The translations under genes were made by a program, and so were the position numbers. 64,000 nt of DNA from Diplonema papillatum. Its lineage: Eukaryota > Euglenozoa > Diplonemea > Diplonemida > Diplonemidae. The stretch covers positions 89,449 to 153,448 of the forward strand of contig JAPJBO010000544.1 of assembly GCA_030068145.1 (NCBI GenBank), written 5' to 3'. Position 1 is the first letter of the stretch. Every line of letters begins with the position of its first letter. Under the pieces are notes generated by a model, which saw only the letters and a list, made by a program, of their open reading frames with translations, did not search any database and was not told the DNA's origin. This document shows positions 10,475-64,000 of the stretch, in pieces.

Positions 10475-13400
10475 TACGCAGTCGGCGAGTACGAGGGCGG
10501 GCACGTGTGTCCGTTTTTCACTTTCGAGGGCATTGGTGTGCCCGTGGTCCCCGGTCGTTTCTGAGAGCTGCTTGCCCTCGGTACCTTCTTCTTCCTTCGT
10601 TGCACCCCTGAGTCGGGGGTGGTCGCCTTCGTCTTCTTCCGCTTGCGGCCGGCGATCAGGCCTTCCTTCGGGGTGCCGAGCACCCTCTTCTTCAGCGCTG
10701 GTCGTTCGCTGGTTCCTGGCGTTGGTGGCGGCCTCTTGGTCGCCCGTCCGGTCGTCGCCGTCTCCTTTTTAGTTGCCGCGAGCGGCGCTCGCGCCGCTCG
10801 CGCCGCTCGCTTTCCTACTGGCGTTTCCCGCTGTACACCCACCTGGGTGGGTGAGGAGGGCCTCTTCTTCTTGTTGCGTCCGGGGGTTGACTCGACGTTC
10901 GGCTTGTTGGACTGGTGGTGGCCGCGGCTGCAACATGCCGCCGGTCGCCTCTGCGTCAGCGTAGGGAGCCTTTTGCACTCTTGGCAGGTCCCTCTGCCAT
11001 GCGTGCGGCAGGCATGATGCCCGCTGCGGCAACACGCCGCCGCCGTCTTGCACTCGCCGCACTTCGTCGTGCTGTGCTCTGTGCACACCGCGATCGGCTG
11101 CCCATCGTTCGCGTGGTGATGGTGCCGGCAGCACATCTCTACCGTGGGAACGTCCCTTCGGACGAGTGCTCTGCACGCCTCACACTTCCCTTTGTGATGG
11201 GTCGCGCACGTGACGAGTGCCTTCTCTATACCGACACCCGGCATATGCACGGGGTCTGGGTGTAGTTGTGGTGGGGCAGGCAGGGCCCACCTCGCCGCTC
11301 TCCCGATCGTCCAGTCAGGGTACGTCGGGCACTGCGTCCCTACATCGCTTCCTTTCACTTGTTCCTCAAGTATCGTCCCCGTGTGTGCCTCGCGAAAGCG
11401 TGGCCTGGGCCGTATACCCGATATCCCCGTGATGCCCATGAACGACAGCGACGTCGTCGGGCACACCCTCTCTCCTCTCATGCAGCTTCCCAGCCCTTGC
11501 TGTGCCGCCAGCTTGTCCAACGCGCTCATCATGCAGCGCAGGACGTTTCCCCGTTCTCTCACCCCCTTCGGCGCATTCCCGTGCAGCGGCATGCTGAGGC
11601 CCGAGAAGAGCTCAAAGTCGATCGCAAGCTCCAGCATTGACGCCTGCCCGTTCTCGGTCCATTGCATGTCCGACAGCCACGCTACCAACGCATAAAACGT
11701 CGGTAGTCCCCAGGTCTTGTTCCGCTCCCACGTCCATGCCGGGGCAATCCGCGCGAAGGGGTGGTCAAATTTCTCGGCAGGCATCGCATTCGCTCTCGAC
11801 CAGGGGGTCGTGGGGTTCCTGGCCACCCAGGCACGTGCTTCGAGCCCAGCCCGTTCCGCAAGGATTTCAGCCATCATCTCCTGGAGCCGCCTCGAGAATT
11901 GGGCATTCTCGGGTACTACCACACCGTGTTCCAGCGTGCATCTGGGCCAGTCGGCCCGGTTGGCTGCCATCAGCTCGGCATGTGCCTCTCGTCGCCGTAC
12001 GTGCGAGTACGCTCCGCAGTCCCAGAATACGTGTTTCTCGTCCTCGGTGTCGCCGCTTCCACAGTGCTTGCAGCTGGGCGCCTGCGGCTCAGCTCCGGCC
12101 TGCCTCATCCGCGACGTGTACTCAGCCGTGTTCACCCCCCCCGCCAACGCTACACGTATAAGCCTCGCGGTGTGCGCGGGACATTCACGCATCCTCCAGA
12201 AGGAGTTCGTCCGCTCCAGGTCGGCTCTCTGTATGCCCTCGAATCCCGGCCGCCTCGCCACCAGTCGGGACCACGTCTTCGCCCTCAAGTCCGCCCTAAC
12301 TTCATGTCCCCTCTTCGAAGGTGCCGAGGTTAACGGGTCATACGTTGCTCCATTCCTCAGCGTGCGAGACAGGGGCCCGGGTCCCCATACGTGTCCACAC
12401 TCCTCCATGCTCCTCATCGCCAGTCCAACTGGCCCCAGGGGTAGGTCCCCCTCGGCGTATCTTCCCCGGATGCTCTCCATCAGAGGCAGCAGTCGTGGCA
12501 ACCTCTCGCACGCCGCGTAAAACGCTGTCGTCACCCTATATGCTAGGCATGTACCGGGATCCGTCAGGTGGCCCTTCTCCTGAAAGTTTAGGACCATCTC
12601 CCTCGCGCGCTTCGGGTTGGATCCACCCCAGATCAGTCCCATCACCGACGTCGTCAGCCGTTTCATCGCCACCTTCGATACCGGCGCGAAAGAGCAGCCT
12701 GACAGCGCCGCCGGTAGCACATTCGACTGCACAATCCGGACCCGCTTTTCGTACCGGAACGGCGCATGGCGGAGGCCTTCCGCCAGGGCAGCCGCCTTCT
12801 CCACCCTCTCCGAGTCGGACCTTTCCGTCCTATTCTTCGCCGTCGAGACTAGGACCCCGAGGCACTTGACGGATTTGCTAAACCGCAGCAGCGCATCCAC
12901 GCTGCGGAGTTTGAGAGTCGACTGATGCCTACGTCTCGTCGAGAACGCGACCGTCTTCTGGAGGTTTAGCTCCATCCCGGTGAGTGTGCAGAACTCGTCT
13001 ACTACGTCCACTCCCTTTTGCAGGGCGGCCTCCGACAGCCTGGACAGCAGTGTGGCGTCGTCCGCGTATGACTTTGGACTCACACCCTTCGCTTCTTTCT
13101 TGACCGCTTTCATCACTACCGACAGCAGGGCATTGATGAGTATGACGGATACAGGGCACCCTTGAAGGATACCGTTGGTCACACTGAACTCCCTGCCCAC
13201 CCCTAATGGTAGCTTGAAGCGTCTCGCGAGCAGTCTGTAGATAGCCCTCAGCGGCTTGAGAACCCGATTGTGCAATCCTAAGTCCTCGGCTAAGCGCAGT
13301 ACTATCTCTCGCGGGACCATGTCGAAGCATTTCCGGAAGTCCAGCGCCACACCGTAGAGCGGCTCCCCGTCCAACAAGGCGTCCTCCATCTCGAGCCCAA

Positions 13401-13926
13401 TTTCCATCAAGACGTCCTCGATCCGGTGACCCGGTCGAAAGCCTTTCTGTCCTTCTTCGATCCATTCCTCTTGCCACAGAACTATGTCCGCCAGCCTGCG
13501 GCAGGCCCATAAGCGGTACACGGCGGATGTGACGGTTATCGGTCTTGTGTGCAGCGGGTCTTGACTCTCATCCTTCGGCACCATCGACACCAGCGCAGTT
13601 GTCATGCTTGCCGGCCAGTCTCCAGTTGTTTCGACCAGGTTCATGACGTCTGCAAGTGCATTCAGCAGGGGGAGCGGCAACTCCCGCAGTTCAGCCATAC
13701 GCCAGCCATCCACCCCTGACGCGCTTTTCTTCGGCTTCTTCCTCAGCAGAATTCGCAGCTCCTCCCCCGTGATTGTTCCGGCTTCCATCATATGTGGGCC
13801 GATGTGATCCCGGAACCGATCCCGAAACGGCTCGTACTCCGGCTCTGGCCCGTCCTTGTACTTACGCAGGATAGGGTCCCACGCAGTGTTCAGCACCTCG
13901 TCCATCTCGTCAATATTTGCAGTCAC
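10471..13926 (-). CDS. LINE B ORF: reverse transcriptase to Cys/His tail
   Basis: An uninterrupted frame of 1151 codons covering the reverse transcriptase (YGVALDFRKCFDMV, NGILQGCPVSVIL, catalytic SYADDATLL), the thumb region, the C2HC knuckle CKHCGSGDTEDEKHVFWDC and the threefold Cys/His module (CATHHKGKCEAC, then MCCRHHHH, CGEC, CCRSGHH, CQEC, CCSRGHH). The AlkB-like, 2A and endonuclease parts are absent because of 5' truncation. The first codon is not an ATG; the frame simply enters from the junction. The C-terminus is artificial, ending SPTAY where repeat DNA replaces the native end. The intact frame and near identity with LINE D imply a young insertion. Confidence 0.92.
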   Translation of the reverse strand: MTANIDEMDEVLNTAWDPILRKYKDGPEPEYEPFRDRFRDHIGPHMMEAGTITGEELRILLRKKPKKSASGVDGWRMAELRELPLPLLNALADVMNLVETTGDWPASMTTALVSMVPKDESQDPLHTRPITVTSAVYRLWACRRLADIVLWQEEWIEEGQKGFRPGHRIEDVLMEIGLEMEDALLDGEPLYGVALDFRKCFDMVPREIVLRLAEDLGLHNRVLKPLRAIYRLLARRFKLPLGVGREFSVTNGILQGCPVSVILINALLSVVMKAVKKEAKGVSPKSYADDATLLSRLSEAALQKGVDVVDEFCTLTGMELNLQKTVAFSTRRRHQSTLKLRSVDALLRFSKSVKCLGVLVSTAKNRTERSDSERVEKAAALAEGLRHAPFRYEKRVRIVQSNVLPAALSGCSFAPVSKVAMKRLTTSVMGLIWGGSNPKRAREMVLNFQEKGHLTDPGTCLAYRVTTAFYAACERLPRLLPLMESIRGRYAEGDLPLGPVGLAMRSMEECGHVWGPGPLSRTLRNGATYDPLTSAPSKRGHEVRADLRAKTWSRLVARRPGFEGIQRADLERTNSFWRMRECPAHTARLIRVALAGGVNTAEYTSRMRQAGAEPQAPSCKHCGSGDTEDEKHVFWDCGAYSHVRRREAHAELMAANRADWPRCTLEHGVVVPENAQFSRRLQEMMAEILAERAGLEARAWVARNPTTPWSRANAMPAEKFDHPFARIAPAWTWERNKTWGLPTFYALVAWLSDMQWTENGQASMLELAIDFELFSGLSMPLHGNAPKGVRERGNVLRCMMSALDKLAAQQGLGSCMRGERVCPTTSLSFMGITGISGIRPRPRFREAHTGTILEEQVKGSDVGTQCPTYPDWTIGRAARWALPAPPQLHPDPVHMPGVGIEKALVTCATHHKGKCEACRALVRRDVPTVEMCCRHHHHANDGQPIAVCTEHSTTKCGECKTAAACCRSGHHACRTHGRGTCQECKRLPTLTQRRPAACCSRGHHQSNKPNVESTPGRNKKKRPSSPTQVGVQRETPVGKRAARAARAPLAATKKETATTGRATKRPPPTPGTSERPALKKRVLGTPKEGLIAGRKRKKTKATTPDSGVQRRKKKVPRASSSQKRPGTTGTPMPSKVKNGHTCPPSYSPTAY

Positions 13927-13929
13927 TCT
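10475..13929 (-). mobile_element. LINE B, truncated at both ends
   Basis: Nearly identical by eye to the matching part of LINE D. The 5' end is truncated just before the codons for TANIDEMDEVLNTAWD and abuts the 3' tail of LINE C (AACTCAATGCTAAA then GAGTGACTG). The 3' end is replaced at about 10475 by repeat DNA, so the last roughly 25 codons and the tail are missing. Confidence 0.9.
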
Positions 13930-16900
13930 TTAGCATTGAGTTCTTTTAAGTACATGAACCACATGGATTAGCATGCACTGTGTCGCCGCTTAAGGTTACT
14001 TTATGACGTCGTCACCTGTCATTGCGTCGTCAAGGTCGAGTACTTGTGGCGCCAGGGGCGCTGGGCTTTCTTGCGGTTCCGGGGATTGCGTGGGGGAGCA
14101 CAGGTGCGGACAGGCTTGCACGTTTTTCACTCTCGAGGGCACTAAAGTGCTTGGGGACGTCGGACGTTTCTGGTAGCTGCTTGCTTTAAGGGCCTTCCTC
14201 TTTCTTCGTTGCACCCCTGACTCGGGTGTGGTCGCCTTCGCCTTCTTCCGCTTGCGGCCGGCGATCGGGCTCTCCTTCGGGGTGCCGAGCACCCTCTTTT
14301 TCAACGCTGGTCGTTCGCCGGTCCCTGGCGTTGGTGGCGGCCTCTTGGCTGCCCGTCCGGTCGTCGCCGTCTTCTGCTTCGCTACGGCGGGCGGCGCCTG
14401 CGCCGCGCGCTTTCCCGCCGGCGTTTCTCGTTGTACGCCCACCTGGGTGGGTGAGAGGGGTCTCTTCTTCTTTTTGCTGTGTCCGGGGGTTGCCGGGGCG
14501 TTCGGTTCGTTGGGTTGGTGGTGGCCGCGGCGGCAGCACGCTGCCGGTCTCCTCTGCGTCAACGTAGGGAGCCTCCTGCATTCTTGGCAGGTTCCTCTGC
14601 CATGCGTGCGGCAGGCATGATGCCCGCTGCGGCAGCACGCCGCCGCCGTCTTGCACTCGCCGCACTTCGTCGTGCTGTGCTCCACGCACACGGCGATCGG
14701 CTGCCCATCGTCAGCGTGGTGATGGTGCCGACAGCACATCTCTACCGTGGGTACGTCCCTTCGGACGAGTGCTCGGCACGCCTCACACTTCCCCTTGTGG
14801 TGGGTCGCGCAGGTGACGAGTGCTTTCTCTACTCCGACACCCGGCATATGCACGGGGTCGGGGTGCAGCTGTGGTGGGACAGGCAGGGCCCACCTCGCCG
14901 CTCTCTCGGCCGTCCAGTCCGGGTACGTCGGGCACTGCGTCCCTACATCGCTTCCCTTCACCTGCTCTTCGAGGATCGTCCCCGTGTGTGCCTCGCGAAA
15001 GCGGGGCCTGGGCCGCACCCCCGATATCCCCGAGATGCCCATGAACGACAGCGACGTCGTCGGGCATACTCTCTCGCCTCTCTCGCAACTCCCCAGCCCT
15101 TGCTGTGTCGCCAGCTTGTCCAACGCGCTGATCATGCAGCGCAGGACGTTTCCTCGCTCCCTCACCCCCTTCGGTGCATTCTCGTGCAGCGGTATGCTGA
15201 GGCCTGAAAAGAGTTCAAAGTCGATGGCAAGCTCTAGCATTGACGCCTGCCCGTTCTCGGTCCACTCCATGTCTGATAGCCACGCTACCAACGCATAAAA
15301 CGTCGGTAGTCCCCAGGCCTTGTTCCGCTCCCACGCCCATGCCGGGGCAATCCGCGCAAAGGGGTGGTCGAGCTTCTCGGCAGGCATCGCATCCGCTCTC
15401 GACCAGGGGGTCGTGGGGTTCCTGGCTACCCAGCCTCGTGCTTCGAGCCCTGCCCGTTCCGCAAGGATTTCAGCCATCATCTCCTGGAGCCGCCTCGAGA
15501 AGTGGGCATTCTCGGGTACTACCACACCGTGTTCCAGCGTGCATCTGGGCCAGTCGGCGCGGTTGGCCGCCATCAGCCCGGCATGTGCCTCTCGTCGCCG
15601 TATGTGCGAGTACGCTCCGCAGTCCCAAAATACGTGTTTCTCGTCCGGTGTCGCCGCTTCCACAGTGCCTGCAGCTGCCTCATCCGCGACGTGAACTCAG
15701 CCGTGTTCACTCCTCCCGCCAACGCTACACGTATAAGCCTCGCGGTGTGCGCGGGGCATGCACGCATCCTCCAGAAGGAGTTTGTCCGCTCCAGGTCAGC
15801 CCTCTGCACACCCTCGAATCCCGGCCGCCTCGCTACTAGACGGGACCACGTCTTCGCCCTCAAATCCGCCCTCACCTCATGCCCCCTCTTCGAGGGTGTC
15901 GAGGCTATCGGGTCAAACATTGTACCATTCCTCAGCGTGCGAGACAGGGGCCCTGGTCCCCATACGTGTCCACACTCCTCCATGCTCCTCATCGCCAGCC
16001 CAACTGGCCCCAGGGGTAGGTCCCCCTCGGCGTACCTTCCCCGGATGCTCTCCATCAGAGGCAGAAGTCGTGGCAACCTCTCGCACGCCGCGTAGAACGC
16101 CGTCGTCACCCTATATGCTAGGCATGTACTGGGGTCCGTCAGGTGGCCCTTCTCCTGAAAATTTAGGACCATCTCCCTCGCGCGCTTTGGGTTGGACCCA
16201 CCCCAGATCAGTCCCATCACCGACGTCGTCAGCCGTTTCATTGCCACCTTCGACACCGGCGCGAAAGAGCAGCCTGACAGCGCCGCCGGTAGCACATTCG
16301 ACTGTACAATCCGGACCCGCTTCTCGTACCGGAACGGCGCATGGCGGAGGCCTTCCGCCAGGGCAGCCGCCTTCTCCACCCTCTCCGAGTCGGACCTTTC
16401 TGTCCTATTCTTCGCCGTCGAGACTAGGACCCCCAGGCACGTGACAGATTTGCCAAACCGCAGCAGCGCATCCACGCTGCGGAGTCTGAGCGTCGACTGA
16501 TGCCTACGTCTCGTCGAGAAGGCGACCGTTTTCTGGAGGTTTAGCTCCATTCCGGTGAGCGTGCAGAACTCGTCTACTACGTCCACCCCCTTTTGCAGGG
16601 CGGCCTGGCCTCCGACAGCCTGGATGCAGCGTGGCATCGTCCGCGTACGACTTTGGGCTCACCCCCTCCGCTTCTTTCTTGACCGCCTTCATCACTACCG
16701 ACAGCAGGGCATTGATGAGGATGACGGATACAGGGCACCCTTGAAGGATACCATTGGTCACACTAAACTCCCTGCCCACCCCTAGAGGCAGCTTGAAGCG
16801 TCTCGCGAGCAGTCTGTAGATCGCCCTCAGCGGCTTGAGAACCCGATTGTGCAACCCTAAGTCCCCGGCCAGGCGCAGCACTATCTCTCGCGGGACCATG

Positions 16901-17902
16901 TCGAAACATTTCCGGAAGTCCAGCGCCACCCCGTAGAGCGGCTCTCCATCTAGCAAGGCGTCCTCCATCTCGAGCCCTATCTCCATCAGGACGTCCTCGA
17001 TACGGTGACCCGGTCGAAAGCCCTTCTGTCCTTCTTCGATCCACTTCTCCTGCCACAGGACTATGTCCGCAAGCCTGCGGCACGCCCATAGGCGGTACAC
17101 AGCGGACGTGACGGTTATTGGCCTCGTGTGCAGCGGGTCTTGGCTCTCATCCTTCGGCACCATCGACACCAGGGCAGTTGTCATGCTCGCCGGCCAAACC
17201 CCAGTCACTTCGACCAGGTTCATGACATCCGCTAGCGCATTCAGCAGGGGAAGCGGCAACTCCCGCAGTTCAGCCATGCGCCAGCCATCCACGCCTGACG
17301 CGCTTTTCTTCGGCTTCTTCCTTAGCAGAGTCCGCCCGTGATCGTTCCGGGTTCCATCAAGTGTGTGTGCTCCTGGAACCGATCCCGAAACGGTCCGTAC
17401 TCCGGCTCTGGCCGGTCCTTGTACTTACGCAGGATAGCGTCCCACGCAGTGTGCAACACCTCGTCCATCTCGTCCACATTTGCAGTCATCTTTGCTCCGG
17501 TGCGCAACACTCCCGACAGCTCAGCGCGACCGGCGCGGACGGTCGCCAGACATCGTCTGCTCGCGTCCGCCCTCTTGTTCAGCTTGTCTCGGTACTTCGT
17601 AAACCTGGCCGCAGATCGTTCTCTTCCGAGCCTACTCGTCTCTTCCCGCAACGCTGTGAGCAGCTGCTTCGCCTTCTCATGATCCGGAAACCCCCCTGCG
17701 CCTTGGTCGCCCTTCATGCACGCTTGTGCCAGCCGCCTGCAGTTCTGCCAGCAGAGGGATACCTCATGTGGAACAGCTTCCGGCCCGCGACGGTGCGCGA
17801 GGTAGCTGCAGATGCGTTCCATCCGGTGGATGGCCTTTCTGAGCCGTAGCTGCCTGCTGTCCGACCCGTCGGTCGCAGTGCCCGCCGTGGCACAGACCGT
17901 TG
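13930..17902 (-). pseudogene. LINE C, decayed copy of the same family
   Basis: The same family as B and D but with several breaks. Recognisable pieces are 17822-17322 (linker before the reverse transcriptase; broken where EELRILLRKK should be), 17292-16504 (reverse transcriptase to SYADDATL), 16637-15573 and 15663-13996 (Cys/His module and basic tail). A small deletion removes part of the C2HC knuckle near 15660, and a rearrangement breaks the frame after the catalytic ADD near 16620. The 3' tail (13930-13980: GTGCATGCTAATCC to AACTCAATGCTAAA, minus strand) is complete and joins LINE B directly. The 5' end (about 17900) is truncated and abuts another tail. Confidence 0.88.
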
Positions 17903-33185: not shown

Positions 33186-34430
33186 GGACTTCAGCAGCCA
33201 TATATACTAAGACAATGCGGGAGTGAAAAAGTGCTGGAGTGGCCACTTCTACATTGCGGGAGTGCCATTCCCGCATTGAGGGGGTCCCACTCCCGCATTG
33301 AGGGGGTCCCACTCCCGCATTGAGGGGGTCCCACTCCCGCATTGAGGGGGTCCCGGTCCCACTCCCGCATTGAGGGGGTCCCACTCCCGCATTGAGGGGG
33401 TCCCACTCCCGCATTGAGGGGGTCCCACTCCCGCATTGAGGGGGTCCCACTCCCGCATTGAGGGGGTCCCGGTCCACTCCCGCATTGAGGGGGTCCCACT
33501 CCCGCATTGAGGGGGTCCCACTCCCGCATTGAGGAGGTCCCGGTCCACTCCCGCATTGAAGGGGTCCCACTCCCGCATTGAGGGGGTCCCACTCCCGCAT
33601 TGAGGGGGTCCCACTCCCGCATTGAGGGGTCCCGGTCCACTCCCGCATTGAGGAGGTCCCGGTCCACTCCCGCATTGAGGGGGTCCCACTCCCGCATTGA
33701 GGGGGTCCCGGTCCACTCCCGCATTGAGGGGGTCCCACTCCCGCATTGAGGGGGTCCCACTCCCGCATTGAGGGGGTCCCACTCCCGCATTGAGGGGGTC
33801 CCACTCCCGCATTGAGGGGGTCCCACTCCCGCATTGAGGGGGTCCCACTCCCGCATTGAGGGGGTCCCACTCCCGCATTGAGGGGGTCCCACTCCCGCAT
33901 TGAGGGGGTCCCACTCCCGCATTGAGGGGGTCCCACTCCCGCATTGAGGGGGTCCCACTCCCGCATTGAGGGGGTCCCACTCCCGCATTGAGGGGGTCCC
34001 ACTCCCGCATTGAGGGGGTCCCACTCCCGCATTGAGGGGGTCCCACTCCCGCATTGAGGGGGTCCCACTCCCGCATTGAGGGGGTCCCACTCCCGCATTG
34101 AGGGGGTCCCACTCCCGCATTGAGGGGGTCCCACTCCCGCATTGAGGGGGTCCCACTCCCGCATTGAGGGGGTCCCACTCCCGCATTGAGGGGGTCCCAC
34201 TCCCGCATTGAGGGGGTCCCACTCCCGCATTGAGGGGGTCCCACTCCCGCATTGAGGGGGTCCCACTCCCGCATTGAGGGGGTCCCACTCCCGCATTGAG
34301 GGGGTCCCACTCCCGCATTGAGGAGGTCCCGGTCCACTCCCGCATTGAGGGGGTCCCACTCCCGCATTGAGGGAGTGAGGCCGACCGCACAAACTACCGC
34401 AAACCACTCCCGCAATCCGGAGTGGGAGTC
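33186..34430. mobile_element. minisatellite-bearing element, expanded copy
   Basis: The flanks of the minisatellite are shared with a second locus at 55602-55799: left CCCGGACTTCAGCAGCC, right GAGGCCGACCG, then CCACTCCCGCAATCCGG and AGTGGGAGT. The outer ends look like short inverted repeats (CCCCGGACTTC and GGAGTCCGGGG). The two loci differ mainly in the number of internal units, about 50 here and about four there. Confidence 0.7.
33236..34378. repeat. 22-bp minisatellite, about 50 units
   Basis: Unit CACTCCCGCATTGAGGGGGTCC, with occasional inserts reading CCGGTCC. Because 22 is not divisible by 3, three units form one 22-codon cycle, and all three minus-strand frames stay open across the whole array. 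These long frames are not genes. Confidence 0.97.
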
Positions 34431-37989: not shown

Positions 37990-38510
37990 CCAGTGTTGGA
38001 CCGCTCCGAGCTTCCGCTTCTTCCGCTTGGGCTCGCCGTTCCTCCACCAGGGCTTCCGCTTCTTCCGCTAGGGCTCGCCGTTCCTCCACCAGGGCTTCCG
38101 CTTCTTCCGCTTGGGCTCGCCGTTCCTCCACCAGGGTTCCGCTTCTTCCGCTTGGGCTCCCCGTTCCTCCACCAGGGCTTCCGCTTCTTCCGCTTGGGCT
38201 CGCCGTTCCTCCACCAGGGTTCCGCTTCTTCCGATTGGGCTCCCCGTTCCTCCACCAGGGCTTCCGCTTCTTCCGCTTGGGCTCCCCGTTCCTCCACCAG
38301 GGTTCCGCTTCTTCCGATTGGGCTCCCCGTTCCTCCACCAGGGCTTCCGCTTCTTCCGCTTGGGCTCCCCGTTCCTCCACCAGGGCTTCCGCTTCTTCCG
38401 CTTGGGCTCGCCGTTCCTCCACCAGGGTTCCGCTTCTTCCGATTGGGCTCCCCGTTCCTCCACCAGGGCTTCCTCTTCTTCCGCTTGGGCTCGCCGTTCC
38501 CCTCGATCGC
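37990..38510 (-). repeat. 41-bp minisatellite derived from helicase exon 1
   Basis: About 12 units of GCTTCCGCTTCTTCCGCTTG plus GGCTCGCCGTTCCTCCACCAG, variants with TTCCGATTGGGCTCCCCG. The unit equals the codons GNGEPKRKKRKPWW of exon 1. At 41 bp it changes frame each unit, so it encodes three different peptides in rotation. Confidence 0.93.
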
Positions 38511-38765
38511 CGCCGCCCGCTGCATCTCGTCGGTGAGCTGCACGATCTGCGACTGCTTCATGCCCCTTCCCCGCTGCGCCGCCGACGAGGACCCCGGCAG
38601 GCCTGCCATCCCCGGGGTCATCTGCGCCCCAGACTTGAACGCCGTCGGCTCGTCGGCCTCGCTGCCGCCCCCGGCGCTGCCGTCCTGGCCCCCTTCCGCT
38701 TCAGCTTCCGTTTCCGCATTGCGCAGCATGTCGCGCAGCTTTCGCTTCTTCCCTTTGATACCCAT
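38511..38765 (-). pseudogene. second copy of helicase exon 1 start
   Basis: Repeats MGIKGKKRKLRDMLR to AAAIEGNGEPK with the same 5' flank (CTCGGATCTTTTGAAAAAA), then runs into the minisatellite and out of frame. Differs by A-to-N and A-to-S changes (LRNAE, PGSSS). Confidence 0.9.
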
Positions 38766-38969
38766 CGCGTTTTTTCAAAAGATCCGAGTGATCCCAAAAA
38801 AGAGGTGTTTTCCCCTCCCCCCGCCACACCTCCAACTGCGAGTGTAAAAAGAGTAAAACTACAATTTGCGAATGAGCGAATGAGCTTACAGGAGGGCGGA
38901 CTAGTTCCCGTGGGAGGCTGTTTTCTCCCAGCTTTTCGCCGGGAGAGCCGCCAGTGTTGGACCGCTCCG

Positions 38970-39170
38970 AGCTTCCGCTTCTTCCGCTTGGGCTCCCCGT
39001 TCCTCCACCAGGGCTTCCGCTTCTTCCGCTTGGGCTCGCCGTTCCTCCACCAGGGTTCCGCTTCTTCCGATTGGGCTCCCCGTTCCTCCACCAGGGCTTC
39101 CGCTTCTTCCGCTTGGGCTCGCCGTTCCTCCACCAGGGCTGCCTCTTCTTCTGCTTGGGCTCGCCGTTCC
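38970..39170 (-). repeat. 41-bp minisatellite, short array
   Basis: Four to five units of the exon-derived repeat, preceded (38770-38969) by a copy of the helicase upstream region and a segment ending CGCCAGTGTTGGACCGC. Confidence 0.9.
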
Positions 39171-39435
39171 CCTCGATCGCCGCCGCCCGCTGCATCTCGT
39201 CGGTGAGCTGCACGATCTGCGACTGCTTCATGCCCCTTCCCCGCTGCGCCGCCGACGAGGCCCCCGGCAGGCCTGCCATCCCCGGGGTCATCTGCGCCCC
39301 AGACTTGAACGCCGTCGGCTCGTCGGCCTCGCTGCCGCCCCCGGCGCTGCCGTCCTGGCCCCCTTCCGCTTCAGCTTCCGTTTCCGCCTTGCGCAGCATG
39401 TCGCGCAGCTTTCGCTTCTTCCCTTTGATACCCAT
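39171..39435 (-). pseudogene. third copy of helicase exon 1 start
   Basis: Again MGIKGKKRKLRDMLRKAE through EGNGEPK with intact 5' flank. Protein-identical to the true exon over this part, then lost in the minisatellite. Its promoter region may still be active. Confidence 0.9.
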
Positions 39436-39639
39436 CGTGTTTTTTCAAAAGATCCGAGTGATCCCAAAAAAGAGGTGTTTTCCCCTCCCCCCGCCACACC
39501 TCCAACTGCGAGTGTAAAAAGAGTAAAACTACAATTTGCGAATGAGCGAATGAGCTTACAGGAGGGCGGACTAGTTCCCGTGGGAGACTGTTTTCTCCCA
39601 GCTTTTCGCCGGGAGAGCCGCCAGTGTTGGACCGCTCCG

Positions 39640-39985
39640 AGCTTCCGCTTCTTCCGCTTGGGCTCGCCGTTCCTCCACCAGGGCTTCCGCTTCTTCCGCT
39701 TGGGCTCGCCGTTCCTCCACCAGGGCTTCCGCTTCTTCCGCTTGGGCTCGCCGTTCCTCCACCAGGGCTTCCGCTTCTTCCACTTGGACTCGCCGCCGCC
39801 CGCTGCATTTCGTCGGTGACCTGCACGATCTGCGACTGCTTCAGGGTCATCGGCGCGCCAGACTTGAACGCCGTCGGCTCGTCGGCCTCGCTGCCGCCCC
39901 CGGCGCTGCCGTCCTGGCCCTCTTCCGCGTCGGCTTCCGTTTCCGCCTTTTGCAGCATGTCGCGCAGCTTTCGCTTCTTCCCTTT
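39640..39985 (-). pseudogene. fourth, most degraded copy with minisatellite
   Basis: Four minisatellite units (39640-39790), then a shortened exon copy missing the PGMAGLPGASSAAQRGRG part and lacking the start codon; the left flank turns into sequence ending CAAACGACCAACGGATC. Marks the outer edge of the tandem duplications. Confidence 0.87.
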
Positions 39986-57900: not shown

Positions 57901-58054
57901 ATTCTTTTACTTGTTAGTTGTCGACAACTTGTTTTTGTGTTGTGGTGTCATTCAGATGTAAATCTAAAGCCGCCCACGTCAAACTTTGTTAAGCATTGAG
58001 TTCTTTTAAGTACATGAACCACGTGGATTAACATGCACTGCCTTGAAAGTCAGG

Positions 58055-61000
58055 TTATCGGATGACGTCGTCACCTGCCATTGCGTCGTCAAGGTCGAGC
58101 ATTTGTGGAGCTAGCGGGGTTTGGCTTTCTTGCGATTCCAGAGACTGAGTCGGCGAGTACGAGGGCGGGCACGTGTGTCCGTTTTTCACTTTCGAGGGCA
58201 TTGGTGTGCCCGTGGTCCCCGGTCGTTTCTGAGAGCTGCTTGCCCTCGGTACCTTCTTCTTCCTTCGTTGCACCCCTGAGTCGGGTGTGGTCGCCTTCGT
58301 CTTCTTCCGCTTGCGGCCGGCGATCGGGCCTTCCTTCGGGGTGCCGAGCACCCTCTTCTTCAGCGCTGGTCGTTCGCTGGTTCCTGGCGTTGGTGGCGGC
58401 CTCTTGGTCGCCCGTCCGGTCGTCGCCGTCTCCTTTTTCGTTGCCGCGAGCGGCGCTCGCGCCGCTCGCGCCGCTCGCTTTCCTACTGGCGTTTCCCGCT
58501 GTACACCCACCTGGGTGGGTGAGGAGGGCCTCTTCTTCTTGTTGCGTCCGGGGGTTGACTCGACGTTCGGCTTGTTGGACTGGTGGTGGCCGCGGCTGCA
58601 ACATGCCGCCGGTCGCCTCTGCGTCAGCGTAGGGAGCCTTTTGCACTCTTGGCAGGTTCCTCTGCCATGCGTGCGGCAGGCATGATGCCCGCTGCGGCAA
58701 CACGCCGCCGCCGTCTTGCACTCGCCGCACTTCGTCGTGCTGTGCTCTGTGCACACCGCGATCGGCTGCCCATCGTTCGCGTGGTGATGGTGCCGGCAGC
58801 ACATCTCTACCGTGGGAACGTCCCTTCGGACGAGTGCTCTGCACGCCTCACACTTCCCTTTGTGATGGGTCGCGCACGTGACGAGTGCCTTCTCTATACC
58901 GACACCCGGCATATGCACGGGGTCTGGGTGTAGTTGTGGTGGGGCAGGCAGGGCCCACCTCGCCGCTCTCCCGATCGTCCAGTCAGGGTACGTCGGGCAC
59001 TGCGTCCCTACATCGCTTCCTTTCACTTGTTCCTCAAGTATCGTCCCCGTGTGTGCCTCGCGAAAGCGTGGCCTGGGCCGTATACCCGATATCCCCGTGA
59101 TGCCCATGAACGACAGCGACGTCGTCGGGCACACCCTCTCTCCTCTCATGCAGCTTCCCAGCCCTTGCTGTGCCGCCAACTTGTCCAACGCGCTCATCAT
59201 GCAGCGCAGGACGTTTCCCCGTTCTCTCACCCCCTTCGGCGCATTCCCGTGCAGCGGCATGCTGAGGCCCGAGAAGAGTTCAAAGTCGATCGCAAGCTCC
59301 AGCATTGACGCCTGCCCGTTCTCGGTCCATTGCATGTCCGACAGCCACGCTACCAACGCATAAAACGTCGGTAGTCCCCAGGTCTTGTTCCGCTCCCACG
59401 TCCATGCCGGGGCAATCCGCGCGAAGGGGTGGTCAAATTTCTCGGCAGGCATCGCATTCGCTCTCGACCAGGGGGTCGTGGGGTTCCTGGCCACCCAGGC
59501 ACGTGCTTCGAGCCCAGCCCGTTCCGCAAGGATTTCAGCCATCATCTCCTGGAGCCGCCTCGAGAATTGGGCATTCTCGGGTACTACCACTCCGTGTTCC
59601 AGCGTGCATCTGGGCCAGTCGGCCCGGTTGGCTGCCATCAGCTCGGCATGTGCCTCTCGTCGCCGTATGTGCGAGTACGCTCCGCAGTCCCAGAATACGT
59701 GTTTCTCGTCCTCGGTGTCGCCGCTTCCACAGTGCTTGCAGCTGGGCGCCTGCGGCTCAGCTCCGGCCTGCCTCATCCGCGACGTGTACTCAGCCGTGTT
59801 CACCCCCCCCGCCAACGCTACACGTATAAGCCTCGCGGTGTGCGCGGGACATTCACGCATCCTCCAGAAGGAGTTCGTCCGCTCCAGGTCGGCTCTCTGT
59901 ATGCCCTCGAATCCCGGCCGCCTCGCCACCAGTCGGGACCACGTCTTCGCCCTCAAGTCCGCCCTAACTTCATGTCCCCTCTTCGAAGGTGCCGAGGTTA
60001 ACGGGTCATACGTTGCACCATTCCTCAGCGTGCGAGACAGGGGCCCGGGTCCCCATACGTGTCCACACTCCTCCATGCTCCTCATCGCCAGTCCAACTGG
60101 CCCCAGGGGTAGGTCCCCCTCGGCGTATCTTCCCCGGATGCTCTCCATCAGAGGCAGCAGTCGTGGCAACCTCTCGCACGCCGCGTAAAACGCTGTCGTC
60201 ACCCTATATGCTAGGCATGTACCGGGATCCGTCAGGTGGCCCTTCTCCTGAAAGTTTAGGACCATCTCCCTCGCGCGCTTCGGGTTGGATCCACCCCAGA
60301 TCAGTCCCATCACCGACGTCGTCAGCCGTTTCATCGCCACCTTCGATACCGGCGCGAAAGAGCAGCCTGACAGCGCCGCCGGTAGCACATTCGACTGCAC
60401 AATCCGGACCCGCTTTTCGTACCGGAACGGCGCATGGCGGAGGCCTTCCGCCAGGGCAGCCGCCTTCTCCACCCTCTCCGAGTCGGACCTTTCCGTCCTA
60501 TTCTTCGCCGTCGAGACTAGGACCCCGAGGCACTTGACGGATTTGCTAAACCGCAGCAGCGCATCCACGCTGCGGAGTTTGAGAGTCGACTGATGCCTAC
60601 GTCTCGTCGAGAACGCGACCGTCTTCTGGAGGTTTAGCTCCATCCCGGTGAGTGTGCAGAACTCGTCTACTACGTCCACTCCCTTTTGCAGGGCGGCCTC
60701 CGACAGCCTGGACAGCAGTGTGGCGTCGTCCGCGTATGACTTTGGACTCACACCCTCCGCTTCTTTCTTGACCGCTTTCATCACTACCGACAGCAGGGCA
60801 TTGATGAGTATGACGGATACAGGGCACCCTTGAAGGATACCGTTGGTCACACTGAACTCCCTGCCCACCCCTAATGGTAGCTTGAAGCGTCTCGCGAGCA
60901 GTCTGTAGATAGCCCTCAGCGGCTTGAGAACCCGATTGTGCAATCCTAAGTCCTCGGCTAAGCGCAGTACTATCTCTCGCGGGACCATGTCGAAGCATTT

Positions 61001-64000
61001 CCGGAAGTCCAGCGCCACACCGTAGAGCGGCTCCCCGTCCAACAAGGCGTCCTCCATCTCGAGCCCAATTTCCATCAAGACGTCCTCGATCCGGTGACCC
61101 GGTCGAAAGCCTTTCTGTCCTTCTTCGATCCATTCCTCTTGCCACAGAACTATGTCCGCCAGCCTGCGGCAGGCCCATAAGCGGTACACGGCGGATGTGA
61201 CGGTTATCGGTCTTGTGTGCAGCGGGTCTTGACTCTCATCCTTCGGCACCATCGACACCAGCGCAGTTGTCATGCTTGCCGGCCAGTCTCCAGTTGCTTC
61301 GACCAGGTTCATGACGTCTGCAAGTGCATTCAGCAGGGGGAGCGGCAACTCCCGCAGTTCAGCCATACGCCAGCCATCCACCCCTGACGCGCTTTTCTTC
61401 GGCTTCTTCCTCAGCAGAATTCGCAGCTCCTCCCCCGTGATTGTTCCGGCTTCCATCATATGTGGGCCGATGTGATCCCGGAACCGATCCCGAAACGGCT
61501 CGTACTCCGGCTCTGGCCCGTCCTTGTACTTACGCAGGATAGGGTCCCACGCAGTGTTCAGCACCTCGTCCATCTCGTCAACATTTGCAGTCACTCCCGC
61601 CCCCTTTCGCAACACCCCCGACGGCTCAGCGCGTCCGGCGCAGATGGTTGTCAGACATCGTCTGCTCGCATCGGCCCTCTCGTTCAGCTTGTCTCGGTAT
61701 TTCGTAAACCTGGCCGCCGATCCTTCCTTTCCGAGCCTGCTCGTCTCTTCCCGCAATGCCGTGAGAAGCTGCTTCGCCTCCTCATGATCCGGGAATCCTT
61801 CTGTCCCTTGGCCATCTTTCATGCACGCCTGTGCCAGCCGCCTGCTGTTCTGCCAGCAACGGGATACCTCATGCGGAACTGCCTCCGGCCCGCGCCGTTG
61901 CGCAAGGTAGCTGCAGATGCGTTCCATCCTGTGGATGGCCTTCCGGAGCCGTAGCTGTCTGCTGTTCGCCGCCCCCGACCCGTCGCTCGCAGTGCTTGCC
62001 GTGATGCAGACTCTTTTAGGTGACGTCTTTATCCCCCGGCCGGTACTTCTTCCCCTTTCTTCCGCAGGGATTCCGAAGGCATCCTGCAAGTACTGCTCAC
62101 TGACTCGTGACCACTCGAGCCAGGCCTCTTCCACTCGCTGTGCTGCCAGCCGTTCTGCGAAATCGGAGTTGGCCAGTCTCTGTACGGCTTCCCTGTAAGC
62201 TTCTGTGTCCGAGAGGCCCCACTTGGGTCCCCCCTCCGTAGAGATTTCCCGCGGTACTTTAAATCGCCACACGATTTGGCGCAGCGCCGCAATGTCCAGG
62301 GTCATTGTCACGAGCCGGTGTCCCGGCACGTTCACCGCGGTGGTGACGCATTGGCGGAAAGCTCCCGTCGTTATTCGGTTGAGGAGTATGCGGTCGATCC
62401 TCGTGCCCGATGTCCGGGCGCTGGTAAAGGTCGGTGGTGGTGGTGTGTCACCGGTACGCGCATGGTGCAGTTCCGCTGCGTCGGACCATCCATTCCTTAG
62501 TGCCTTCCGCAGTACAGGGGACCGGTCTTCTTCCGTGTTCAGGTCACCCATCACCATTATGGGGACGTCACCGAGGCTATCCGCCGCTGCGAAGAGGATC
62601 TTCTCCAGCATGTCCTCACGCTCCTCGCTCTCCGCCCTCCCGTTTCCGGAAGGGCAGTAGACATTGAACACGTGCACGAACGTGTTGCCGGCCCCTGTTG
62701 CTACTACCGTATGGCTCACTCGGTCCGGGGACCGTACTGCTGCGTGCGCGAGCGCCGTCATCGTATCGTACGCCGGTATCGGTCTCAGTACTAGAGTGGA
62801 GAGCCCTCCGTTCGCGGCGTTCATCGTCGAGCGACTACCGGAGTTCCTACAGAGTCTTCCGGGTGGTGGCAGACCCCAGTGGCAGCACCATTTCCGCAGG
62901 TATTCCTCTGCCTGCACCCGTTTGCACGGAAGGAGTGTCACCTCCTGGCAGCAGAGAAGATCCGCTTCCACCGCGTCGGCCGCTGGGAGATACTGTAGTA
63001 GGTTGGTTACGTTTAACGTCGCGAACCTCATCTCCGCGCGGCCGGGACCAGGGTTTTGTTCGACGTCCCCCGCGGTTATCAGCCGCTGTCTTGCTGATTC
63101 TTTGATTGATTGTAGAGTTCTTTGGTGATGAAGCAAAAGTGTCCGTGGCGCGGGGCTGGACTGATGTTGGGGGGGTGCAGTGGATGCCTGAGGGCTGGGC
63201 GGGGGGGGTATGGGAGCTTCTTGCGGGGTGTCCCGGCCTTGCAAACTTTGGGAGGCGGCCTCGCGCACGGCCCTGTAGGTCAGCGAGACCCGGTCGCGTG
63301 CGACATCATCGGGACGAATCCCGTGCGTCCACAGGTTCCTGGCCTCGCCTTCCATGTGGCACAGTGTGCCGACCGGCAGAGGGGTTCTCAGTCTCCGGCT
63401 CCCCCTCTCCCATTCCATGACCGTGTCGCTCAAGAGCGATATGGTCGCTACCCTCGGACCCAGTTCTCTCTGGTCTCTGTGGGGGTTGATCCCCACTCCC
63501 CTCCGGTACCAGTTGGCCAGCAACTGGTCCGGTTCCCACCCAAGGCGGTCACGTATGAGATCCGCCGCTTCTTTCAGGGGCCCCTCGGGGATACCCCGTT
63601 CCAGTCTGATCGGGGGTTCACCTAGTCTGAGAGCGTGCCCCCACTGCTGGGTTTCCCTGCTGTGTCCACCCCCCAGCCTTCCCCATGTGGCTTCCGGGTT
63701 GAGCTCGGGTGCTCGGCTCAGTCTATCCAGAAGATCCCGAGGGATCGCCGGAAACTTAGCCCCGGGATGGGTCCCTCCACCCTCGGGGGCCCTCGTTGCA
63801 AGTTGGCCGGGCACACTGGCTATTGTAGGGGATTGTTTGTGCGCAAAACCGGCCCTCGGGGTATCAGCTCCCGGGCGATTGAGGCCAGGCGCGCCGTGAG
63901 AGAGAGGGAGGGGAAAAGAGGAGGAGCAGGAATTCTCTTTTTCCGTCTCTGCGTGATCGAACTGCCTAGCAGGGGTGCTAGGACTCGGCAGCCCGAACGA
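58055..64000 (-). CDS. LINE D polyprotein: AlkB-like, 2A, endonuclease, reverse transcriptase, Cys/His module
   Basis: One frame without stops, open to position 64000 with no ATG before the AlkB-like part, so the start lies outside. Residues are numbered from the codon at 63814. An AlkB-like 2-oxoglutarate/Fe(II) oxygenase (about 45-185) has INPHRDQ (His112, Asp114), WTHGI (His164) and RVSLTYR (Arg175, Arg181). A Pro-rich linker leads to GDVEQNPGP (249-257), a canonical 2A ribosome-skipping motif. An apurinic endonuclease (262-510) follows with CQEV (Glu291), GDLN (424-426), RIDRIL (Asp474) and GHR (His499). The reverse transcriptase (about 800-1110) has LDFRKCFDMV and SYADD (Asp1029, Asp1030). 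A C2HC knuckle lies near 1376, a threefold CxxH/CxxC/CCxxxHH module at about 1645-1745, then a Lys/Arg-rich tail. The copy looks intact and possibly active. Confidence 0.95.
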   Translation of the reverse strand, partial: SFGLPSPSTPARQFDHAETEKENSCSSSFPLPLSHGAPGLNRPGADTPRAGFAHKQSPTIASVPGQLATRAPEGGGTHPGAKFPAIPRDLLDRLSRAPELNPEATWGRLGGGHSRETQQWGHALRLGEPPIRLERGIPEGPLKEAADLIRDRLGWEPDQLLANWYRRGVGINPHRDQRELGPRVATISLLSDTVMEWERGSRRLRTPLPVGTLCHMEGEARNLWTHGIRPDDVARDRVSLTYRAVREAASQSLQGRDTPQEAPIPPPPSPQASTAPPQHQSSPAPRTLLLHHQRTLQSIKESARQRLITAGDVEQNPGPGRAEMRFATLNVTNLLQYLPAADAVEADLLCCQEVTLLPCKRVQAEEYLRKWCCHWGLPPPGRLCRNSGSRSTMNAANGGLSTLVLRPIPAYDTMTALAHAAVRSPDRVSHTVVATGAGNTFVHVFNVYCPSGNGRAESEEREDMLEKILFAAADSLGDVPIMVMGDLNTEEDRSPVLRKALRNGWSDAAELHHARTGDTPPPPTFTSARTSGTRIDRILLNRITTGAFRQCVTTAVNVPGHRLVTMTLDIAALRQIVWRFKVPREISTEGGPKWGLSDTEAYREAVQRLANSDFAERLAAQRVEEAWLEWSRVSEQYLQDAFGIPAEERGRSTGRGIKTSPKRVCITASTASDGSGAANSRQLRLRKAIHRMERICSYLAQRRGPEAVPHEVSRCWQNSRRLAQACMKDGQGTEGFPDHEEAKQLLTALREETSRLGKEGSAARFTKYRDKLNERADASRRCLTTICAGRAEPSGVLRKGAGVTANVDEMDEVLNTAWDPILRKYKDGPEPEYEPFRDRFRDHIGPHMMEAGTITGEELRILLRKKPKKSASGVDGWRMAELRELPLPLLNALADVMNLVEATGDWPASMTTALVSMVPKDESQDPLHTRPITVTSAVYRLWACRRLADIVLWQEEWIEEGQKGFRPGHRIEDVLMEIGLEMEDALLDGEPLYGVALDFRKCFDMVPREIVLRLAEDLGLHNRVLKPLRAIYRLLARRFKLPLGVGREFSVTNGILQGCPVSVILINALLSVVMKAVKKEAEGVSPKSYADDATLLSRLSEAALQKGVDVVDEFCTLTGMELNLQKTVAFSTRRRHQSTLKLRSVDALLRFSKSVKCLGVLVSTAKNRTERSDSERVEKAAALAEGLRHAPFRYEKRVRIVQSNVLPAALSGCSFAPVSKVAMKRLTTSVMGLIWGGSNPKRAREMVLNFQEKGHLTDPGTCLAYRVTTAFYAACERLPRLLPLMESIRGRYAEGDLPLGPVGLAMRSMEECGHVWGPGPLSRTLRNGATYDPLTSAPSKRGHEVRADLRAKTWSRLVARRPGFEGIQRADLERTNSFWRMRECPAHTARLIRVALAGGVNTAEYTSRMRQAGAEPQAPSCKHCGSGDTEDEKHVFWDCGAYSHIRRREAHAELMAANRADWPRCTLEHGVVVPENAQFSRRLQEMMAEILAERAGLEARAWVARNPTTPWSRANAMPAEKFDHPFARIAPAWTWERNKTWGLPTFYALVAWLSDMQWTENGQASMLELAIDFELFSGLSMPLHGNAPKGVRERGNVLRCMMSALDKLAAQQGLGSCMRGERVCPTTSLSFMGITGISGIRPRPRFREAHTGTILEEQVKGSDVGTQCPTYPDWTIGRAARWALPAPPQLHPDPVHMPGVGIEKALVTCATHHKGKCEACRALVRRDVPTVEMCCRHHHHANDGQPIAVCTEHSTTKCGECKTAAACCRSGHHACRTHGRGTCQECKRLPTLTQRRPAACCSRGHHQSNKPNVESTPGRNKKKRPSSPTQVGVQRETPVGKRAARAARAPLAATKKETATTGRATKRPPPTPGTSERPALKKRVLGTPKEGPIAGRKRKKTKATTPDSGVQRRKKKVPRASSSQKRPGTTGTPMPSKVKNGHTCPPSYSPTQSLESQESQTPLAPQMLDLDDAMAGDDVIR
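63044..63067 (-). other. 2A-type ribosome-skipping motif in LINE D
   Basis: Codes for DVEQNPGP, matching the D(V/I)ExNPGP consensus exactly. Skipping would occur between the Gly and the last Pro, releasing the AlkB-like protein and starting the endonuclease/reverse transcriptase protein with Pro. The upstream residues (IKESARQRLITAG) are of the helical type seen before active 2A sites. Confidence 0.88.
63260..63682 (-). other. AlkB-like oxygenase domain of LINE D
   Basis: The region NWYRRGVGINPHRDQ, VATISLLSDTVMEWERG, GEARNLWTHGI and RDRVSLTYRAVRE has the order HxD, hydrophobic strand, H, RxxxxxR of AlkB dioxygenases, which oxidise methyl groups off DNA or RNA bases. All metal ligands and the two Arg are present. 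Confidence 0.85.

Follow-up and report, generated by a model that had tools for sequence, protein, structure and literature searches.

The stretch of DNA analyzed here, a 64,000-nucleotide segment of Diplonema papillatum contig JAPJBO010000544.1 (C544 in the contig numbering used below; positions 89,449 to 153,448; hereafter the window), was found to end within a long interspersed nuclear element (LINE) whose minus-strand coding frame extends from position 64000 to 58055. With an EEP-type endonuclease (EN) followed by a reverse transcriptase (RT) bearing a YxDD motif in one polypeptide, the element was assigned to the apurinic/apyrimidinic endonuclease (APE)-type non-long-terminal-repeat (non-LTR) retrotransposons of D. 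papillatum. The features read from its sequence and from that of its relatives, namely the domain order, the intact catalytic residues, the conservation of frame and stop codon, the selection on its AlkB domain, and the single clade of element-borne AlkB domains, led us to infer stop-codon readthrough, 2A skipping, the location of a fusion protein, and demethylation. As a whole, the design that we favor, with somewhat more confidence than doubt, is a single-frame arrangement of open reading frame 1 (ORF1), UGA (read through), AlkB, 2A, EN, and RT on one mRNA, in which the fusion resides in the ribonucleoprotein (RNP) and AlkB acts as an oxidative demethylase.

The frame in the window comprises 1981 codons without a stop, and Pfam profiles identified three domains in it, each with a score above the curated cut-off: 2OG-FeII_Oxy_2 of the AlkB family (PF13532, residues 152-243, 44.9 bits, E = 2e-11), EEP (PF03372, residues 333-542, 35 bits, E = 1.6e-8), and RVT_1 (PF00078, residues 927-1160, 74 bits, E = 1.8e-20). 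The motif GDVEQNPGP (residues 311-319), which lies between AlkB and EN, conforms to the 2A consensus D[V/I]ExNPGP (PMC4981915). The order AlkB, 2A-type motif, EN, and RT in one frame, which an initial annotation had proposed from the letters alone, suggesting a profile check of the three domains, was thus borne out. The endonuclease motifs TLN, QE, GDLNT, and GHR are all present, the catalytic YADD of RT occupies residues 1089-1092, and a CCHC motif (residues 1421-1439) and a Cys/His-rich array (residues 1709-1806) follow. No RNase H was detected after RT when the entire frame was scanned with Pfam at E up to 1, and a PADLOC scan returned RT matches only. The AlkB domain shows the marks of its family, that is, the HxD...H iron triad, R-x5-R, N-x-Y, and the double-stranded beta-helix, and its iron- and 2-oxoglutarate (2OG)-binding residues are intact (N-x-Y at 163-165, HRD at 174-176, H226 within WTHG at 224-227, and R-x5-R at 237-243). 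An AlphaFold2 model of this part built from 19 sequences reached a predicted local distance difference test score (pLDDT) of 87.5 and a predicted template modeling score (pTM) of 0.84; the best solved structures found with it by Foldseek were ALKBH6 (6.3e-12), then ALKBH5 and Ofd2, and the best match by sequence in the PDB was the AlkB domain of ALKBH8 (6e-7).

The contig ends at window position 64000, and the frame in the window represents only the second part of the coding unit. The start, which the initial annotation had suggested seeking beyond this position, lies neither in the window nor on the contig; the front of the unit was found in other copies of the genome (271 Mb, 2910 contigs), in which an upstream ORF1 stands in the same frame as AlkB with one TGA between them. 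These copies represent four sublineages, designated A1, A2, B, and C. In the five copies in which it is whole (L015, L017, L018, L022, and L027), ORF1 is open for 618-738 codons and ends in a Cys-rich zinc knuckle. The ORF1 proteins of A1, A2, and B, which align from a common start Met, share 25-34% identity, and a Pfam search with three ORF1s revealed no family above the cut-off. At the junction, TGA is followed by CT in all 13 copies read, namely as TGA-CTA in A1 (L013, L018, L022, L029, and L031), as TGA-CTC in A2 (L017 and L027, and also L023, L024, and L025, which have an extra stretch ahead of the stop), and as TGA-CTG in B (L015 and L021) and C (L056); a further copy, L030, appeared with TGA-CTG in the genome-wide tag listing. 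Some of these copies, e.g., L029 and L030, are broken elsewhere. When sequence tags of the junction were searched genome-wide with the stop position left open, TGA was found in 65/65 A1-type and 46/46 B-type tags, and 37 of the 39 C-type tags matched exactly with TGA, that of C227 having a mismatch; the 27 A2 tags do not reveal the stop codon. The short motif UGA-CU was shown to act as a leaky stop in fungi and mammals (PMC4207609), and at the junction a conserved leaky stop context of this kind is followed by a same-frame coding region under selection, as is expected of readthrough. Furthermore, subfamily A has no in-frame ATG from the upstream TGA to the middle of AlkB: in the copies with a whole lead, the first Met is residue 221 in A1 (L013, L018, L022, and L031) or residue 263 in A2 (L017, L024, L025, and L027), in either case after the HxD inside AlkB. 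Since a same-frame ORF1 precedes UGA-CU and the lead of subfamily A lacks an ATG, an ORF1-AlkB fusion arising through readthrough is the most likely form in which AlkB is produced, rather than the free demethylase initially proposed.

The UGA junction was also found in relatives that have no AlkB. The D. papillatum protein P0030 has an ORF1-type N-terminus, a zinc knuckle, two 2A-like motifs, and EN, and is devoid of AlkB. Its junction region was compared with the genome in six frames, stops being counted but not placed, which gave 128 matches (111 of 1996 candidates scored). Ninety-one of them span a P0030-type ORF1/EN junction, 67 with at least 90% identity, 1 with 74%, 7 with 48%, and 16 with 47-50%. 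TGA occurs in 89 of the 91, and 86 have exactly one TGA and no other stop. Because the match that begins at residue 106 has one TGA and those that begin from residue 117 on have none, with four exceptions, the TGA was placed between ORF1 and 2A. The retention of a UGA in frame between proteins of about 50% identity would be difficult to account for unless readthrough, or less probably splicing, were selected for, and the UGA junction was judged from these comparisons to be older than AlkB in the LINE lineage. In addition, an A2-type tag from behind the UGA lies 432 bases from the start of the 2A-EN match in six contigs (C20, C205, C359, C388, C662, and C825); these loci are AlkB-less, since the AlkB domain alone takes 489 bases, and their longest frames have 1861 codons versus 2046 in A2 with AlkB. 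The corresponding distance in C472 is 591 bases. A1 and A2 are 98.6-98.9% identical from the linker on and have unlike ORF1s, so A2 looks like a recombinant between the 5' end of an AlkB-less element and the 3' part of an AlkB element.

The 2A motif is likewise not confined to the AlkB-bearing LINE. A degenerate DNA pattern for DVEQNPGP had 177 exact matches in the genome versus 0 for the reversed control, which argues against chance, and GDVEQNPGP or GDIEQNPGP is found in all four sublineages; the NPGP motif was therefore conserved in other copies of the family, as the initial annotation required. NPGP occurs in 14 of 71 collected proteins, directly ahead of EN in 12, nine of which have D[V/I]: four with the full D[V/I]ExNPGP (P0002, P0023, P0034, and P0058) and five with D[V/I]HPNPGP (P0005, P0020, P0022, P0030, and P0048). 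P0035, P0036, and P0039 have NPGP before EN without the D, and in P0066 and P0069 it is neither before EN nor preceded by D[V/I]. Two successive 2A-like motifs lie ahead of EN in both P0023 and P0030. None of the 12 proteins with NPGP-EN displayed an AlkB motif, although gene models may begin after AlkB, so that the firm AlkB-less cases are the loci showing ORF1, TGA, and EN together. An N-terminal OTU domain takes the place of AlkB in P0040 (by Pfam) and in P0056 and P0062 (by precomputed labels); OTU was also suspected by eye in P0033 and P0054, and Pfam found none in P0033. As far as these sequences tell, 2A is widespread among the relatives and AlkB is local, and 2A is thus no special property of the AlkB LINE.

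The selection on AlkB was estimated from Nei-Gojobori-type counts of nonsynonymous and synonymous changes (dN/dS), taking one copy per sublineage without a significance test. The ratios for AlkB were 0.165 (A1-B), 0.321 (A1-C), 0.199 (A2-B), 0.387 (A2-C), and 0.155 (B-C), and those for EN-RT were 0.105-0.153 (A1-A2, 0.198) and for the linkers 0.35-0.76. Together with the catalytic residues, which are kept in the four sublineages, these values indicate that AlkB is under purifying selection between sublineages. AlkB was a late acquisition of the LINE.

AlkB domains were found in other repeated elements of the genome as well, where they sit N-terminally. Two Helitron families, L032 (C1735:7800-15800) and L033 (C166:21300-29200), have a Rep frame that opens with AlkB and another long ORF upstream; PF13532 was detected in both along with Helitron_like_N (4.4e-38 and 2.9e-38, respectively), and their AlkBs are 43-46% identical to those of the LINE. 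The AlkB of L034 (C641:1900-9700, minus strand) is 78-80% identical to the LINE AlkBs, the OTU-like domain of this element scoring under the curated cut-off (20.8 versus 23.3 bits). An RT-like part of L034/P0007 and a tyrosine-recombinase-like part of P0012 were seen by eye only; profile searches of L034 and P0012 did not detect either domain. A further repeated sequence carrying AlkB (L046/L057, with L057 at C1931:9600-13500; also L045 and L054) shows 46-48% identity and has a hydrophobic segment. In a phylogenetic tree that also took in 13 host-like AlkBs, some of them long-branched, and 19 outside proteins, eight element-borne AlkBs (four LINE, one OTU element, two Helitron, and one further repeat) were set apart from the rest by a branch supported at 100/100; L040, L045, L047, L049, L051, L054, and L055 were left out as near-duplicates. 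At the DNA level, homology between the LINE and the OTU element covers the AlkB stretch (511-522 bases, 79-81%) and a common 5' leader (99 columns at 84% for L017 and 78 columns at 78% for L015), the other matches being low-complexity repeats and a few of 26-38 bases. One AlkB lineage thus appears to have moved between element classes within the Diplonema genome, and because the eight element AlkBs form one clade apart from the 13 host AlkBs, the data suggest that AlkB is a cassette shared among mobile elements. As for its source, pattern searches followed by tblastn confirmed none of 14 pattern-matching stretches in viral contigs (viral_contigs) and none of 6 in the prokaryotic set (genome_contigs). 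Stand-alone relatives amounted to 19 proteins past E 1e-8 (7998 candidates scored), 18 of them with 28-37% identity; the organism named among them is the fungus Colletotrichum plurivorum.

Under the favored design, one mRNA would hold in one frame a Gag-like ORF1 with its C-terminal zinc knuckle, UGA-CU, AlkB, 2A, EN, RT, and the zinc modules. The majority of ribosomes would stop at UGA and release the ORF1 protein, and the fraction reading through would produce an ORF1-AlkB fusion carrying the 2A tail and, by 2A skipping, a free EN-RT in equal amount. The equimolarity with RT that the initial annotation expected would then still hold, applying to the fusion and not to a free enzyme. Judging from the architecture, ORF1, presumed to bind RNA, would bring AlkB into the element RNP, where it could strip base methyl groups from the element RNA, the first-strand cDNA, or the target DNA. 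Because transposition proceeds as DNA in Helitrons and through RNA in LINEs, the occurrence of AlkB in both suggests a substrate common to the two life cycles, for example mRNA, single-stranded DNA, or chromosomal DNA. In mammals, N6-methyladenosine (m6A) was described to favor L1 and ALKBH5 to suppress it (PMC7873242); in Arabidopsis, demethylation by ALKBH9B helps ONSEN, as recounted in PMC9289625. These cases being opposite, it cannot be taken for granted in which direction m6A would act. A wider proposal, which we put forward only tentatively, is that an AlkB lineage distinct from the cell's own has been exchanged between the LINE, the OTU-bearing family, the Helitrons, and the further repeat because it overcomes the marking or silencing of mobile elements by a host modification, with mRNA or chromosomal/single-stranded DNA as the common substrate and a methylation-based defense in diplonemids, the AlkB of the LINE being tethered to ORF1 via UGA-CU readthrough and 2A. 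If the favored design is right, a retrotransposon would join stop readthrough to 2A skipping and thereby fix how much ORF1, ORF1-AlkB, and EN-RT is made relative to one another, and an enzyme cassette would have passed between mobile elements of quite different life cycles, which would point to a common host defense acting through base modification in marine protists of a species-rich group.

Several observations weigh against the readthrough design. The invariance of TGA inside a subfamily mostly reflects recent common descent, so that the comparison between sublineages is the telling one, and the C-type tag of C567, being free of mismatches yet without an exact match to TGA, carries another codon at the stop. 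Two spanning AlkB-less matches have no stop (C669 and C449), and three have a second one (C49, two TGA; C1464, TGA and TAA; C208, TGA and TAG); moreover, the TGA-CT context was read in AlkB-bearing copies, the AlkB-less families being known by stop count only. Folding downstream of UGA was not unusual (z from +0.94 to -1.90 for four lengths in four lineages, relative to mononucleotide shuffles), which leaves a stimulatory RNA structure unsupported, and the AlkB dN/dS between A1 and A2 was 2.0, on 7 changes only. Also to be counted here is that subfamilies B and C have an in-frame Met ahead of AlkB. The second frame has 97-153 open codons ahead of AlkB in the four sublineages. AlkB-2A-EN-RT might on this ground be translated alone, from a non-AUG codon or a trans-spliced mRNA, to yield a free demethylase, which we consider unlikely: the late first Met of subfamily A stands against it, and the conservation of the ORF1 frame and of TGA between distant families would be left unexplained. 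The gene model of P0030 raises another doubt, since its 366 residues correspond to 378 codons, the TGA being among the 12 left out. The UGA could accordingly be spliced out, a small intron or a trans-splicing acceptor bridging ORF1 and AlkB without any need for readthrough, and unconventional cis-introns and spliced-leader trans-splicing are among the features by which Euglenozoa were compared (PMC10161547). Such splicing seems similarly unlikely to us, for an intron of 36 bases would be very short, the lengths around the stop vary between sublineages, and the choice of UGA with CU after it would remain without explanation.

As to the enzyme itself, the sequence match to ALKBH8 would agree with a modifier of tRNA or another cellular RNA that tunes translation of the element, including readthrough and skipping, given that a tRNA-modifying enzyme could affect the decoding of UGA. 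We give this reading a small chance, because ALKBH6 and ALKBH5 rank first in the structure search, Pfam detected no ALKBH8-type RRM or methyltransferase part in the LINE frame, and the Helitrons have the same domain without an NPGP visible by eye in their stretches examined. It is very improbable that AlkB is a recently captured passenger of no use to the element. AlkB was indeed seen in one LINE lineage only, and its capture would have shortly preceded the split of the sublineages (synonymous divergence, dS, of AlkB between the LINE and the OTU element 0.50-0.68, versus 0.27-0.45 for EN-RT between A, B, and C); however, its dN/dS of 0.16-0.39, the preserved catalytic residues, and its retention in many long frames speak against uselessness. 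Decoding of the UGA as selenocysteine was given almost no credence. In its favor, the A1 and B tags invariably show UGA, and Euglenozoa have selenoproteins; nevertheless, five element loci (L015, L017, L018, L027, and L034) gave no match to a selenocysteine insertion sequence (SECIS) at E up to 1, nor did the window at the gathering score. Readthrough at UGA-CU giving an ORF1-AlkB fusion thus remains the reading that we prefer.

The window contains, besides the element described above, two further copies and a diverged relative (Table 1). Among 20 of the 177 genomic 2A matches that were examined, 8 had AlkB ahead of 2A in a frame running for at least 1980 codons without a stop, and the remaining 12 were truncated or broken. 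A PF13532 search of the genome, in which 150 of 250 candidates were scored, gave 71 rows out of 150 with frames of 1900-2050 codons; two of these are other elements, and the other 69 were assigned to LINE copies by frame length and score group. When residues 90-560 were used as a protein query, 13 proteins were obtained, 12 under the name of D. papillatum. The public gene model P0001 starts at the Met directly after 2A and hence lacks AlkB, so that the arrangement is easily overlooked.

Table 1. Features of the LINE and its relatives in the window
Feature	Position	Strand	Basis
Proline/serine-rich linker from the ORF1/UGA junction (off contig) to AlkB, cut by the contig end	63755..64000	minus	frame; homology to the sequence that follows the in-frame TGA in other copies
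AlkB 2OG-Fe(II) oxygenase domain, residues 83-245 (NWY, HRD, H226, RVSLTYR 237-243)	63266..63754	minus	PF13532, residues, model, Foldseek
2A-type motif GDVEQNPGP	63044..63070	minus	sequence; D[V/I]ExNPGP consensus
APE-type endonuclease (EEP) with TLN, QE, GDLN, and GH motifs	62309..63019	minus	PF03372
Reverse transcriptase, YADD at 60725-60736	60521..61222	minus	PF00078
CCHC zinc motif after RT	59684..59740	minus	sequence
C-terminal Cys/His-rich repeated array	58583..58876	minus	sequence
Short 3' untranslated region ending ...GAACTCAATGCT, 3' end common to many copies	57992..58054	minus	copy comparison
Older frame-broken copy of the LINE, 89.5% identical	13932..17860	minus	sequence comparison
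5'-truncated copy of the LINE, 99.65% identical over 3449 bases	10480..13928	minus	sequence comparison
Diverged relative (RT and zinc array), 36% protein identity	5383..8373	minus	frames, Pfam

The 5'-truncated copies have one common 3' end. In most cases TAAC or AAAC comes directly after this end, ...GAACTCAATGCT (window positions 13958, 17932, and 58018 on the minus strand and 26981 on the plus strand; loci L012-L031). Several truncated copies begin directly after such a GAACTCAATGCT-TAAC/AAAC tail, and TAAC/AAAC also precedes some insertions; the LINE seems to favor a GCT/(A/T)AAC target and to recreate it at its own end, giving rise to head-to-tail nests. Two tandem repeats were observed elsewhere in the window. 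One, of 22 bases (33252-34373, about 49 copies of the unit CATTGAGGGGGTCCCACTCCCG), keeps each of the three minus-strand frames free of stops over hundreds of codons, and the other, of 42 bases (38010-39796), forms three separate blocks and encodes PPPGLPLLPLGLAV-type repeats on the plus strand.

Neither AlkB in a non-LTR element or Helitron nor readthrough between ORF1 and EN-RT within a LINE was described in the titles and abstract starts searched in the open-access literature. Taken separately, AlkB in a retroelement (an orchid Gypsy), 2A in LINEs, and gag-pol readthrough are already known. The Diplonema LINE resembles the L1Tc/ingi elements of trypanosomes in its APE endonuclease and RT and in having 2A upstream of EN; the 2A sequence of L1Tc/ingi-type elements is reportedly functional, and their hosts, the kinetoplastids, are the sister group of the diplonemids. 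INGI elements were described to carry RNase H and a Pr77 leader (PMC12278014). The Diplonema LINE, unlike them, has no RNase H by Pfam and does have ORF1, the UGA junction, and AlkB; its leader of about 95 bases is the one common to the OTU element, and an Rfam search for ribozymes at E up to 1 in the five loci named above gave no match. APE-type LINEs of animals, which are also said to contain 2A, share the placement of this motif in an APE-type LINE, and to our knowledge they have neither AlkB nor ORF1-UGA readthrough.

With respect to the enzyme, the closest analogy is offered by orchid Ty3/Gypsy elements having an ALKBH5-like ORF, whose protein showed RNA demethylase activity in vitro (PMC9289625). 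Both are retroelements that acquired an AlkB-family demethylase, the activity of the LINE enzyme being predicted; the orchid element, however, is an LTR element with a separate AlkB ORF of the plant ALKBH5 type, and the passages and discussion of that report mention no 2A or readthrough. AlkB domains are also present in plant RNA viruses of the Alphaflexi-, Betaflexi-, and Closteroviridae (PMC9289625), which, like the LINE, are selfish RNA-based replicators bearing AlkB within a larger protein. Structural matches to the LINE AlkB included those of Olivavirus actinidiae, Vitivirus alphactinidiae, Grapevine virus T, and grapevine leafroll-associated viruses 1 and 3, although the plant viral AlkBs are only remotely similar (16-21% identity for these five) and the replication machinery differs. 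Finally, the proposed junction recalls the gag-pol of murine leukemia virus (MLV), in which Gag and the enzymatic part share one frame with one stop between them, UAG with a pseudoknot (PMC5009743); the junction of Diplonema differs from it in having UGA-CU without a supported structure, in belonging to a non-LTR element, and in the 2A motif placed between the presumed readthrough stop and EN-RT.

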